From an uncultured Saprospiraceae bacterium (GTDB lineage Bacteria > Bacteroidota > Bacteroidia > Chitinophagales > Saprospiraceae): a DNA stretch of 38,563 bases. The position numbers and the translations under genes were made by a program. Below, piece after piece: positions 9,077-16,878 of this stretch. Location of the stretch: positions 1 through 38,563 of the forward strand of contig CAKZTD010000019.1 in assembly GCA_937921595.1 (NCBI GenBank), written 5' to 3'. The notes below the pieces were generated by a model, which was not told where the DNA came from, searched no databases, and was given only the letters and a program-made list of their open reading frames with translations. Numbering within the stretch: position 1 is the stretch's first letter; the number at the start of each line of letters is the position of its first letter.

Positions 9077-10978
9077 TTATTGCTTTAATAATTTAACTAC
9101 ATGTTTTGAGTCGGCTCCAGTAATTTGAACAAAATATATCCCTTTAACAAAAGATTGCAAGTCAATGGAATTGCTTGATCCTGAAATGGTTTTGCTTAAA
9201 GTTAATTGCCCATAAGTATTGTATATTTCTAAAGTTATATTTTCAATATCTGGAGTTTCGATATTCAAGATATCGTTAGCAGGGTTTGGAAATATTTTAT
9301 ATTCCTCTTCGAAATTATGAGTAGAAATATTTGTTGTGGAGGTTAAGACACCTCTTATATTTATTTCAGCAATTGATGTTCGACTATCATCATTGATAAA
9401 AGAATTGATAGCTGAAAATTTTACATACCTACCATTGGTTTCAGGGAATAGAATGTATTGTCTAATCTTTGTTTGAAAAAAAGTGCCAGCGTTAATAGCT
9501 GTTCCCCAGTTAGTGGTATCGTTGCTTATGTATAATTCATAATCTCGGATTCGTCCTTCCCAAGGTGGAGTATAGTTTTTGTTAGCAGTGTAATAAAATT
9601 CATTGATCGTATACTCATCCCCTAAATCTAATACAACATCATAAGGTCTTAGTCCTGAATCTGTCCAGAACGGAACATGGTAATAAGTATCGATATCATT
9701 GTCAAAAGCTTTAGTCGCATCAAAACCTGCTTGGGCTAGAGTTTCCGAAACCACGCTCCAATTGGATTGAGATATTTCAGGATAATGATCTTGATGTATT
9801 TCAGGAATAGTAACTGTGAATTGAATGTGATCAGTGCCAATGAATTGAATATCATTTATTTCAAAATGCGATTCTTCTCCTGTCCACCAGTTAGAATTAG
9901 GAGTGCTTGTACTACTAAAAGAAGTTCCAGGTAAATAAATGTCTCCAATATTTCCACCGATATTAATATCATTTTCAAGCTCAAATAAGCCATCTGCTTG
10001 TTCGATAGAATGCAAATAATGACTCGATGGAGTCATATTTTCTAATGTGTTGGAAGTATTTACTTTATTGTCCGAATGCCATAAAAGTAATCCCAAATCT
10101 GCTGGGAATAATGCATTTCCCAAAGTGCTTTGTTTACGAGCTTCGATGGTAAAGAATTCAAAAGGGTCATGTGGATTTCTGAAAACCACGACGCTATCTC
10201 CATCTGCTTTTAATGTAATGGTATGTGTTCCTACCGATGGTTCTACAGTATACCCCCAATTATTTTGTACTAAAAATGGTCCTCCTAAAGGTTCTATTTC
10301 AGGTTGTCCTCCAGACATTAAACAATAGAATGAAGTTCCTCCTGAATTGTATTGCGTATCATAAGTATCTGGCAAACGATAAATGCCATGGCCAGCTTCA
10401 TGCAAGGTCATAAACAGATTCAAATCAGTATCCCAAGGTGCTTGAAGTACGGAGCCATAAGTTCGTTTTATGTTGACTCCATTTGAAAGCGTCCAATTTG
10501 GACCATGGCCACCTCCGACACCAGCAGGGTCAAAGGATGAACTGATAATCATTGCAGAGAGAAGCCCTCCATCTTGATCCAGGCTTAATGTATTCCAATC
10601 GTAGCTTGGATGATTGCTGATTACCCATTCGAAAGCATCCCTCCATAATTCAATGCCTTCGTACCAAGGAACTGAGTTATAATGAGATGCAGAGAGTGGT
10701 GCCGTAAAAAAGAAAATATCGTGTTGTATATCAACATTTCGTTTACTTTGCTCATGCCAATACTTTCTAAAAGTACGTTGTACTGTTGGCTCTTGGTAAG
10801 TTATCCCATTGATTAAACTATCAAGCTGAACGCTTCCAATGGTTGCGGGTACATCTGGGTAGTCAATGTAAATAGTAATGCCTTTGTAAGGAATATTTGC
10901 GTCGGTCTGTCCGATTGTAATTATTGAAAATTGAAAAAGGAACAAGCTGAAAGCTATTTTTATAAAAATATTTTTCAT
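9077..10978 (-). CDS. M6-like secreted metalloprotease with discoidin domain and T9SS tail
   Basis: A 633-residue exported protein: signal peptide (residues 1-23); catalytic region with H193 E194 A G H197 in TLHEAGHGIYRLPDTYD, followed by YCLMSGGQPE; an F5/8 type C (discoidin-like) domain at about 395-545 (ATKAFDNDIDTYYHV, VVLDLGDEYTINEFYY, GRYVKFSA); and a T9SS sorting domain (YKIFPNPANDILNIE...). HExxH plus a downstream PD and a Met-turn-like CLMSGG fits the M6 (immune inhibitor A-like) family. Such enzymes are zinc endopeptidases acting at the surface or outside the cell, with discoidin domains usually binding glycans or lipids. Specificity is not deducible. Its upstream region carries a 21-bp-period direct repeat (11063-11099). 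Confidence 0.87.
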   Translation of the reverse strand: MKNIFIKIAFSLFLFQFSIITIGQTDANIPYKGITIYIDYPDVPATIGSVQLDSLINGITYQEPTVQRTFRKYWHEQSKRNVDIQHDIFFFTAPLSASHYNSVPWYEGIELWRDAFEWVISNHPSYDWNTLSLDQDGGLLSAMIISSSFDPAGVGGGHGPNWTLSNGVNIKRTYGSVLQAPWDTDLNLFMTLHEAGHGIYRLPDTYDTQYNSGGTSFYCLMSGGQPEIEPLGGPFLVQNNWGYTVEPSVGTHTITLKADGDSVVVFRNPHDPFEFFTIEARKQSTLGNALFPADLGLLLWHSDNKVNTSNTLENMTPSSHYLHSIEQADGLFELENDINIGGNIGDIYLPGTSFSSTSTPNSNWWTGEESHFEINDIQFIGTDHIQFTVTIPEIHQDHYPEISQSNWSVVSETLAQAGFDATKAFDNDIDTYYHVPFWTDSGLRPYDVVLDLGDEYTINEFYYTANKNYTPPWEGRIRDYELYISNDTTNWGTAINAGTFFQTKIRQYILFPETNGRYVKFSAINSFINDDSRTSIAEINIRGVLTSTTNISTHNFEEEYKIFPNPANDILNIETPDIENITLEIYNTYGQLTLSKTISGSSNSIDLQSFVKGIYFVQITGADSKHVVKLLKQ

Positions 10979-11062
10979 ATGAATTTTGTAAACTGTTTTA
11001 ACTGACTTTTAAAAAAGTCAACTTAAAGGTATTTTTTCAGTTATCAAATTTTTAAAAGAAAG

Positions 11063-11099
11063 ATGTTCTGAATGGTAGCTATTATGTTCTGGATGGTAG
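11063..11099 (-). promoter_or_regulatory. tandem direct repeat upstream of the M6-like gene, candidate LytTR site
   Basis: Two 16-mers, ATGTTCTGAATGGTAG (11063-11078) and ATGTTCTGGATGGTAG (11084-11099), differ at one base and have a 21-nt period. On the coding strand of the leftward M6-like gene they read CTACCATTCAGAACAT. They end 84 nt before its start codon, with a TACCTTTA -7-like box further down. LytTR regulators are known to bind two imperfect direct repeats about two helical turns apart. The CCATTCA core recurs in the repeat at 16846-16878. Binding is inferred. Confidence 0.5.
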
Positions 11100-14188: not shown

Positions 14189-14890
14189 TTAAATACCCCA
14201 TTTCTCACGTAAGGATTTATACCTGCTTCGACTAATTGGCACATGGATGTCGCCTTTAAGAACTAAGGTATACTTACTTCCTGGTTCCACTAATATTTCT
14301 TCAATTTCTTGTTTGTTGATGATGTATGATTTGTGAATACGATCAAAATAAGTCGGTAACAACTGGCTCAGTTTGTCAAGATTTTTATTATGAATTTCTT
14401 TGCTGCCATCCTTAAAAAATAACTCCGCATAAATACCAGCTCCCTTTATATATAATAGATTATCGATAGCCATCATCTGATAACGTCCCTTTTTTTGAAT
14501 GGATAAGAATTTAGTTTCAGTACTTGATTCGGAGCTTGGTTTTTGAAAACGTTGAAAAGCTTTGGCTAGACGATTCTGATTAAAAGGTTTGGGCACAAAA
14601 TCCAGTACTCCATATTCGAAGGCAGTGATGGCCTTTTCTTTATAAGCAGAAATGACGATCGTATGAAAGGGAGCGGCCACCATTTGTTCCAAAATAGAAA
14701 ACCCATCTGCTCCATGCAGATTCAAATCTAGTAAAAGCAAATCAATTTCTTGCTCCGCCAAATAAGCCAGACCACTTTCCACTGAATGGCAAATATGGAT
14801 GTGCTGAATTTGTTCGCTCAAGATAGATTGAGTGAGGCGTTGGGTGCGCCGAGCAATAGCAGGTTCGTCTTCGATGATTAAAATTTTCAT
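14189..14890 (-). CDS. LytTR-family response regulator
   Basis: A 233-residue response regulator. The receiver domain (1-120) has the acidic pair in IIEDEPAIA, phospho-acceptor D55 in LLLLDLNLHGADGF, the conserved Ser/Thr region VISAYKEKA and Lys101 in FVPKPF. The C-terminal LytTR DNA-binding domain (about 133-233) includes YIKGAGIYAELFFKDG, FDRIHKSYIINKQEI and PISRSRYKSLREKW. It follows the sensor kinase gene on the same strand after a 199-nt gap and is almost certainly its partner. LytTR domains bind paired direct repeats about two turns apart; two candidates are in this window, at 16846-16878 and 11063-11099. Confidence 0.95.
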   Translation of the reverse strand: MKILIIEDEPAIARRTQRLTQSILSEQIQHIHICHSVESGLAYLAEQEIDLLLLDLNLHGADGFSILEQMVAAPFHTIVISAYKEKAITAFEYGVLDFVPKPFNQNRLAKAFQRFQKPSSESSTETKFLSIQKKGRYQMMAIDNLLYIKGAGIYAELFFKDGSKEIHNKNLDKLSQLLPTYFDRIHKSYIINKQEIEEILVEPGSKYTLVLKGDIHVPISRSRYKSLREKWGI

Positions 14891-15089: not shown

Positions 15090-16820
15090 TTATTTAAAAA
15101 GTATAATTTTAGTCTCCCAGCCCACTTCTGTTGCTTTTGATTCAAGACTCCATTGGTCCCCATAATTTTCAGCCAAGCGTGACCGGATATATTTCATCCC
15201 CGTTCCTCCTTTCTTTTTATGAGTAGTGGGGCGACTTTTGCCATAGGTTTTTAAGCTATAGATTTTTGAAAGATTATTTTCTTCAAAGTGTAAAACCATC
15301 TTGATTCGATTTTGGTGATCTGGCAAATTATGGGTGATGCCATTTTCAATGACGGTATGCAATATGGCAGGTGGAATGAATTCTCCCTCAGGAATATTTT
15401 TTACTTCGAAAGTATAATTAACTTCTTTTCGATATCGCATAATTTGGATATGCTTTTGACAAAGCTCAATTTCTTGTTCAAGTGGAATGAGTTTTTTCTC
15501 GGCGATGTCGCTCATGATCTCAAACTCTCCTGATAGTGCCTCGATAAACTGTACACTTTCTTTTGGTGATTCTTCTACCCAACTCATCAAAGAGGTGAGT
15601 GTGTTCATGATAAAATGAGGCTGAATATTTTTCTTCAACAACTCATTTTGCAAACGTGAAGATAAGAGGAGTGATGCTTCATAGGCTTCCTTTTGTTCGC
15701 GGGCTCTTTTGGCCAAGAGATACATCATCGATAATACCAATAAACTAAAACTGATGAACAAACTGATGTCATAAGAATAAATCATTGATCGAAAACCAAA
15801 GTTGTAAAATGATATGATACAACCAGAAATAAAAAATACAACTAATACTAATAGCGCTTCTTTTTTCTTTTTCAAAGTCGAATAAATCAAAATTCCCATG
15901 CTGCTCAACCACATGGCTAAACCTAAGTTTTTATTTGTAAAATCAGTTCCTATTCCCCAAAAACTGGTAGCTATAATCAATAAGGTTATAATGCCCCCTG
16001 ATATCCATTTCTTGTTTGAAATATTAAAATAAACAATTAAAAAATAAGGGGTCAAAAAAGAAATCAGACTGGTCAATATAAAGATGATCCACAAACGATA
16101 TAAGTGCCAATGATAAGGATAGGCATATAAAAATTTTACATACTCCATCACGATTAATCCAAAAAATAAAAAGCAAAGTGTACTGAAAATTAATACCTCT
16201 TTTTTTCTGTGACGCAAGATATACAAAAATAAATAGTAGAGCGCTGCCATAAGATAAATACCAGCCAGAATAAATATTTTAGCAGAAAGAATGAGGTCGT
16301 TTTTTAATGATTGCTGATACTCTTCCATGAAGAAAATATTCCAACTGCCATTATTTATTTTTGGACTACGAAAATTGGAAACTCTGATCGCAATGGTATG
16401 AATACCATGATTTAATAAGGAATCTGCTAAAGGAATTTGAGTTAAAAATTTACCAGGCACTTCTTCTGCTTTTGTTTTTCCGACTATTCCATTTCGACTA
16501 ATAAGGTGACTATCCCAATAAAATTCGTAAGCGCCCAATGAGATTACTTGTATACCAGGATGATCGTATAAGTCAGTTATACTATCACATCTGAATTTGA
16601 AACGAAGCCAATATACTCCCACATTATTTGTCGACCCGCTGGGGTCCCAGTCTTGATGATCGAATTCAGGATTGGCCCACTCCATATTATCTCCAACTTG
16701 AATGACCCTTTCATGCGGATATATAATATAACCTGACTTGGCCATACTTGATGGTATACCAAATCCCACGATCAACAAACAAATAAGAACTAAATTTTTC
16801 AATTGATTTCTTTTATACAA
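15090..16820 (-). CDS. LytS/YehU-type sensor histidine kinase with sugar-binding-like and 7TM regions
   Basis: A 576-residue membrane kinase: signal peptide; an extracytoplasmic beta-sandwich (about 30-165; VGVYWLRFKFRCDS, GAYEFYWDSHLISRNG) resembling 7TMR-DISM/galactose-binding sensors; seven hydrophobic helices (about 175-375); and a His_kinase domain with phospho-acceptor His402 in NIQPHFIMNTLTSL. The ATPase N-box-like segment is ILHTVIENGITHNLP and the G-box is KGGTGMKYIRSRLAENYG. No ATG is available at the N-terminus. The frame opens with TTG at 16820 after an in-frame stop; a second TTG at 16802 gives a cleaner signal peptide (MKNLVLICLL) and may be the true start. It partners the LytTR regulator downstream and is divergent from the serine hydrolase gene. 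Confidence 0.93.
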   Translation of the reverse strand: MYKRNQLKNLVLICLLIVGFGIPSSMAKSGYIIYPHERVIQVGDNMEWANPEFDHQDWDPSGSTNNVGVYWLRFKFRCDSITDLYDHPGIQVISLGAYEFYWDSHLISRNGIVGKTKAEEVPGKFLTQIPLADSLLNHGIHTIAIRVSNFRSPKINNGSWNIFFMEEYQQSLKNDLILSAKIFILAGIYLMAALYYLFLYILRHRKKEVLIFSTLCFLFFGLIVMEYVKFLYAYPYHWHLYRLWIIFILTSLISFLTPYFLIVYFNISNKKWISGGIITLLIIATSFWGIGTDFTNKNLGLAMWLSSMGILIYSTLKKKKEALLVLVVFFISGCIISFYNFGFRSMIYSYDISLFISFSLLVLSMMYLLAKRAREQKEAYEASLLLSSRLQNELLKKNIQPHFIMNTLTSLMSWVEESPKESVQFIEALSGEFEIMSDIAEKKLIPLEQEIELCQKHIQIMRYRKEVNYTFEVKNIPEGEFIPPAILHTVIENGITHNLPDHQNRIKMVLHFEENNLSKIYSLKTYGKSRPTTHKKKGGTGMKYIRSRLAENYGDQWSLESKATEVGWETKIILFK

Positions 16821-16845
16821 AGATAGATATCCTCATTTATAATTG

Positions 16846-16878
16846 TGAGCCATTCACAAGAATGATGAGCCATTCACA
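16846..16878 (+). promoter_or_regulatory. perfect 13-bp tandem direct repeat, candidate LytTR operator
   Basis: TGAGCCATTCACA occurs twice without mismatch (16846-16858 and 16866-16878), separated by 7 nt, so the period is 20 nt. It lies between the divergent sensor-kinase and serine-hydrolase genes. Just downstream on the + strand are TTTT (16881-16884), 19 nt, and TACGTTTT (16904-16911), plausible weak -33/-7 elements, which puts the repeats in an activator position for the hydrolase. The spacing fits LytTR binding sites, and the neighbouring genes encode a LytTR system. Binding itself is inferred. Confidence 0.6.

Follow-up and report, generated by a model that had tools for sequence, protein, structure and literature searches.

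The question raised by this locus is which regulator, if any, reads the paired repeat upstream of a gene for an M6-like secreted metalloprotease. The repeat lies in the window, meaning the whole stretch of 38,563 nucleotides analysed here, which is contig C19 of an 8.04-Mb assembly (465 contigs, 99.2% complete). It consists of the 16-mers atgttctgaatggtag (11063-11078) and atgttctggatggtag (11084-11099), which differ at one position and repeat with a period of 21. The site ends 84 nt short of the protease ATG at 10978. The first-pass annotation had described this arrangement, and every part of the description is borne out by the sequence. Read on the coding (-) strand, the site is TACCATCCAGAACAT-AATAGC-TACCATTCAGAACAT. 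The annotation had also likened the site to a second pair at 16846-16878. The likeness extends no further than the 7-base core; the period (21 versus 20), the flanks and the placement relative to the promoter are different.

The window contains two pairs of the core CCATYCA at a spacing of 13-15, where 0.01 would be expected. The bare pair CCATYCA N13/14 CCATYCA has nine matches in the genome and none in the reversed control. Four of these fall into two site classes, of period 21 and period 20; three of the remaining five are within open reading frames (ORFs) and two between them. Three of the nine places have far more than the core in common. As a site definition the bare pair was rejected as too loose, since three of nine matches lie within ORFs. 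The 36-bp motif, TACCRTTCAGAACAT-N6-TACCRTTCAGAACAT, comprises two LytTR-like 9-mers (ACCRTTCAG) 12 bp apart and a conserved AACAT, and the conserved half-site is 15 bp long: T + ACCRTTCAG + AACAT. In the 22 aligned copies used for the position weight matrix, conservation drops beyond 36 bp, A/T-rich flanks excepted. LytTR sites are direct repeats approximately 12 bp apart, according to the available part of PMC4064291, and the layout given there, two direct repeats of 8-13 bp at about this distance, is found at the protease site (ACCATCCAG-12-ACCATTCAG). Tables of LytTR Regulatory System (LRS) sites in the accessible part of PMC6193735 give 9-12-9 sites, for example ACCACTTAC-12-ACCACTTAC. 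The repeat upstream of the protease looks like a LytTR-type paired site, predicted from sequence, and would add a new class to a known kind of site.

The 36-bp motif is far above chance. At up to 3 mismatches, 10 sites are present in the window's genome, and the reversed pattern has no match in 119 genomes. A shorter pattern, CCRTTYAGAACA-N9-CCRTTYAGAACA, gives 12 sites in the window's genome at up to 2 mismatches, and occurs in 38 of 299 family genomes, which represent 27 of 112 genera; its reversed control has 3 matches in 2 genomes. The cut-off of 2 was used because 3 mismatches admits chance matches, the reversed control then giving 7 in 4 of 119 genomes. Seven matches in genome G195 form one tandem array, which is left out of the site rows and kept as motif-only in the Fisher table described below. 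There are 82 site rows without G195, and 77 of these were read. Seven stretches from site-bearing contigs resemble the window in composition (GC 0.33-0.37, tetranucleotide correlation 0.96-0.99), so mis-binning is unlikely.

The sites occupy a characteristic position. The first-pass annotation had proposed comparing pairs within genes with pairs upstream of them. For the full motif, 72 of the 77 sites are intergenic although coding sequence makes up 84% of the DNA; of the nine matches of the bare pair, three lie in ORFs. A TAnnTTTG box (up to 1 mismatch) begins 36-39 nt past the site in 43 of the 77 cases, whereas 300 shuffles give 3.8 such cases on average and never more than 12; the distance peaks at 37-38 nt. 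When TAnnTTG is also allowed, 49 of the 77 fit, the window among them (TAAGTTG, 11025-11019). Across the 77 sites the motif is thus found upstream of a promoter-like box, and in the window it is the looser TAnnTTG that fits. This test supersedes an earlier one, for which 22 sites had been chosen partly by hand. In Flavobacterium the TAnnTTTG box spans -12 to -5, as given in the available part of PMC9723704, so that the site would end near -50.

Table 1. Coordinates of the predicted sites, promoter-like boxes and genes; positions refer to the window unless contig C270 of the same genome is named.
Feature	Position	Strand	Remarks
M6-like secreted metalloprotease (HEAGH, F5/8 type C domain, T9SS sorting domain)	9077..10978	-	From Pfam and sequence
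Candidate -7 box TAAGTTGA	11018..11025	-	37 nt past the site; matches TAnnTTG, but TAnnTTTG only with two mismatches; putative box
Alternative -7 box TACCTTTA	11024..11031	-	31 nt after the site; better match, off the usual spacing
36-bp paired site TACCATCCAGAACAT-N6-TACCATTCAGAACAT	11063..11098	-	One mismatch to the 36-bp motif
Site 9-mers, 12 bp apart	ACCATCCAG (11097-11089), ACCATTCAG (11076-11068)	-	
Window's LytTR response regulator	14189..14890	-	Another regulator is assigned to the protease site by this evidence
7TM-DISM / His_kinase sensor kinase (LytS-like)	15090..16820	-	ORF as listed, start uncertain
-7 box TATCTTTG of the kinase promoter	16818..16825	-	
Period-20 pair, GTGAATGGCTC twice	16846..16878	-	21 nt before TATCTTTG, towards the kinase
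P0004, receiver-LytTR response regulator	C270:21714-22415		Adjoins kinase P0005
P0005, periplasmic-TPR-HisKA_2-HATPase kinase	C270, next to P0004		
Second intact P0004 paralog	C270:17015-17698		60% identical; site 133 nt after it

The genome encodes 43 LytTR domains, so the nearness of any one LytTR gene to the site says little. Among 30 LytTR loci examined with approximately 1.5 kb of flank, the motif is present at two, both on contig C270. This contig carries three sites, interspersed among the genes for P0005, P0004, the intact paralog and a receiver-only relative of 136 residues. Within C270:8000-26000 of genome G000 (locus L060, 8850-14416) there is a tandem of three related receiver genes, encoding proteins of 234 aa, 136 aa (receiver-only) and 256 aa (a paralog). 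Each has a motif site no more than ~120 nt past its stop, and one site carries a third, weaker half-site. One of the genome's 12 sites (C270:16850) is without an adjoining same-strand gene, and another runs off its contig. Kinase-regulator pairs of the C270 type are also found beside a site in other genera (G032, G050, G052 and G006), with sites facing both directions in a divergent region of G050. Of 41 loci of the P0004 type, 30 (from 28 genomes) have a site within 5 kb, and at 15 of these 30 a same-strand site is no more than 150 nt past the stop codon. Nine C270-type proteins from eight genomes form one clade with support 100 in a tree of 82 regulators, a quick tree that includes at most 30 of the 43 LytTR loci of the window's genome.

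Site and regulator also occur together across genera. P0004 orthologs (E<=1e-40) are present in 36 of 299 family genomes. With the window's own genome left out, 32 of 298 have both regulator and motif, 3 the regulator only, 5 the motif only and 258 neither (Fisher p=2.7e-34, a value that ignores the kinship of genomes and overstates their independence; 27 genera are involved). The exceptions mostly help the assignment. In four of the five motif-only genomes (G058, G071, G195, G288, G310), relatives or relics of a C270-type kinase or regulator lie beside a site. (i) Relics of a LytTR regulator flank the surviving site of G058 on both sides (L068 8574-8813 and 9516-9635). (ii) Two tandem C270-type kinases, the first split over two ORFs, have a perfect site in between in G071 (L069 2887-6649). 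(iii) The regulator of G288 is truncated by the contig end. (iv) Kinase and regulator relatives are present near the site of G310. The regulator-only genomes, which have no site at up to 2 mismatches, are G047, G154 and G213. The kinase relative of G154 is a 295-residue ORF only, a weak pair (7 mismatches) lies between the kinase and a lectin-like gene in G213, and the best match in the 14 kb examined of G047 has 6 mismatches. On the strength of co-occurrence and adjacency, the predicted site is reassigned with high confidence to a regulator of the C270 type. The preferred reading, to which we give a probability of about 0.85, is that the protease repeat is a predicted binding site of this regulator type (P0004) and not of the window's regulator, and that P0004 would activate a regulon of exported proteins.

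The first-pass annotation had instead assigned both pairs, and with them the protease, to the window's LytTR regulator. That protein is of the LytTR family, its gene lies 3.1 kb from the site, and the CCATTCA core is common to both pairs. The idea is nevertheless very improbable, as the motif follows the other regulator (p=3e-34 versus 0.15). The window's regulator is approximately 25% identical to P0004 and belongs to a separate clade of 13 in the 82-regulator tree (support 100). It has orthologs in 31 of 299 family genomes; in the 298 other genomes, 6 have regulator and motif, 24 the regulator only, 31 the motif only and 237 neither. Nine window-type regulators occur in site-holding genomes, and the window's own is the single one that shares a contig with a site. 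The family of this regulator has a site class of its own: the best period-20 pair lies 21-22 nt before a TATCTTTG-type box at the kinases of 7 of 13 loci, the window included, and is missing before the box at the other 6. At loci L137 and L138 the pair alone is not above shuffles. The combined pattern of period-20 site and box has 14 matches, spread over 13 of the 299 genomes, against 3 in the control. Ten of the 14, in nine genomes, have an ortholog of the window's regulator at a distance of 1.7-2.1 kb, and four are elsewhere; the pattern is found in 9 of the 31 genomes having this regulator type. The protease site was not found to share a class with the promoter or orthologs of the window's regulator. 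The pair at 16846-16878 is, on sequence grounds, most likely where the window's own regulator acts on the kinase promoter, and it may also affect the divergent serine hydrolase. The kinase would start below the TATCTTTG box, where translation from a TTG near 16802 would yield a protein that begins like a signal peptide. A single regulator, or one regulon, for both pairs was rejected on account of the different site classes and different co-occurrence, the 16846 class being found again before kinases that belong to the window regulator's family. Two LytTR circuits are thus present in the window.

Other readings concern the manner of control. The second intact paralog on C270 is possibly, though less likely than not, the protein that reads the site, alone or together with P0004: it belongs to P0004's clade and has its own adjoining site. 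P0004 is the copy adjoining the kinase; the evidence is otherwise equal for both. A regulator of the C270 type that binds and represses, or merely tunes, the protease would suit the weak -7 box of the window. This is unlikely given that the site is fixed 37-38 nt upstream of the box, a place to be expected of an activator and not of a blocking repressor. That the repeat is mobile or structural DNA with no regulatory role is hardly credible. The many near-identical copies would fit such an element, but their conservation falls outside 36 bp, their spacing to the box is fixed and they track one regulator.

The preferred reading, control by the C270-type regulator, builds on the observed site, its genome-wide set, the co-occurrence and adjacency of the regulator, the intergenic placement and the fixed box spacing. 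From these we infer a signal, phosphorylation, binding, and activation rather than repression. The following sequence of events would be predicted. (i) The P0005 kinase would sense a signal and phosphorylate P0004. (ii) A dimer of the regulator would dock head-to-tail on two ACCRTTCAGAACAT half-sites, one 21-bp period apart. (iii) The docked regulator would aid RNA polymerase at a TAnnTTTG promoter, with the -7 box starting ~37 nt downstream. (iv) The protease would be made and then exported by type IX secretion (T9SS), alongside the other exported and surface proteins of the regulon.

The protease itself is an uncertain member of its namesake family. Residues 35-301 match the NCBIfam M6 domain TIGR03296 with 64.5 bits, under the cut-off of 110.8, so that the curated threshold for Peptidase M6 is not reached, and no M6 entry is among its Pfam matches. 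Three relatives (54-57% identity) have no site in the stretches examined. Conservation of the site along with the protease gene was rejected for this reason, and because of these siteless relatives the protease is placed outside the core of the predicted regulon. The genes behind other sites give a broader picture. A same-strand gene follows within 700 nt at 53 of the 77 sites, and 7 sites run off the contig. When 5 kinases and 1 regulator are set aside, 47 targets remain. A crude, home-made rule predicts a signal peptide in 30 of these 47, against 169 of 380 other genes of the same stretches (p=0.009). Pfam matches among the 47, listed here without a control set, include the T9SS sorting domain (8), Collar (3), SH3_3 (3) and B_lectin (2), with single cases of DM9, Jacalin, RicinB, Astacin and F5/8 type C, the last being the window's protease. 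The 'exoenzyme regulon' of the first-pass annotation survives as a regulon with often exported members; 'exoenzyme' is too narrow and the regulator is another one. 'Exported-protein regulon' fits better because of these domains and the target families.

Several families recur behind sites in different genera: a ~600-residue protein (G160, G305, G278), collar proteins (G000, G235, G121), SH3 lipoproteins (G000, G315, G185, G324), an FG-GAP leader family (G000, G235, G032) and a coiled-coil protein of ~940 residues (G000, G160, G156, G324, G345). The secreted coiled-coil protein (L065 11903-14755; L230, L236, L265, L270) is behind a site in every case found here, and its C-terminal ~210 residues are 59-65% identical across genera. 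The copy from G000 has no curated-level Pfam or NCBIfam match. In the FG-GAP exported proteins (L064 2476, L239 4270, L067 8930, L060 4287) a conserved basic leader of ~80 residues (FRALSKKLGKM...NGSF) precedes the hydrophobic signal stretch. This leader differs from the usual signal peptide, and the L067 ORF stops after 86 residues. A cluster of genes for exported proteins of the collar, lectin-like, SH3 and coiled-coil types is found at L065 7581-18340 (G000 C437), where two sites lie 4.1 kb apart.

Tentatively, and with less than even probability, a wider reading can be given: the LytTR two-component system, which is inherited patchily and occurs in 27 of the 112 genera sampled from one Bacteroidota family, would run a conserved contact programme whose exported proteins are of the lectin-like, collar, SH3 lipoprotein, large coiled-coil and FG-GAP types. 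Proteases would have been added lineage by lineage, and sites beside its own genes would let the system and a first target move as one module. The hint given by two repeats has become a testable assignment of regulator, site and promoter, which supplies a predicted site for a LytTR regulator in Bacteroidota and offers a handle on site-sharing exported proteins of unknown function. That two circuits of this type lie 6 kb apart, with similar cores but separate regulators, also warns against reading motifs by the core alone.

No description of the motif was found in the open-access literature, work on LytTR in Bacteroidetes and Saprospiraceae included; subscription papers were not covered. The closest paradigms are the AgrA, ComE and HdrR sites, which, according to the available parts of PMC6193735 and PMC4064291, are likewise two ACC-type 9-mer direct repeats, separated by 12 bp and located in front of a promoter. 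The sites described here differ in their 15-bp half-site, their Bacteroidota TAnnTTTG promoter, the 37-38 nt from site end to box and their link to a two-component system. As in the LRS, a LytTR regulator has sites beside its own gene; unlike the LRS, in which a LytTR protein is combined with a membrane inhibitor, a receiver domain and a kinase are present here. Two-component control tied to the T9SS is shared with PorX/PorY, as far as the accessible accounts of that system go. In those accounts PorX controls the T9SS machine, whereas the LytTR regulator here is tied to cargo genes.
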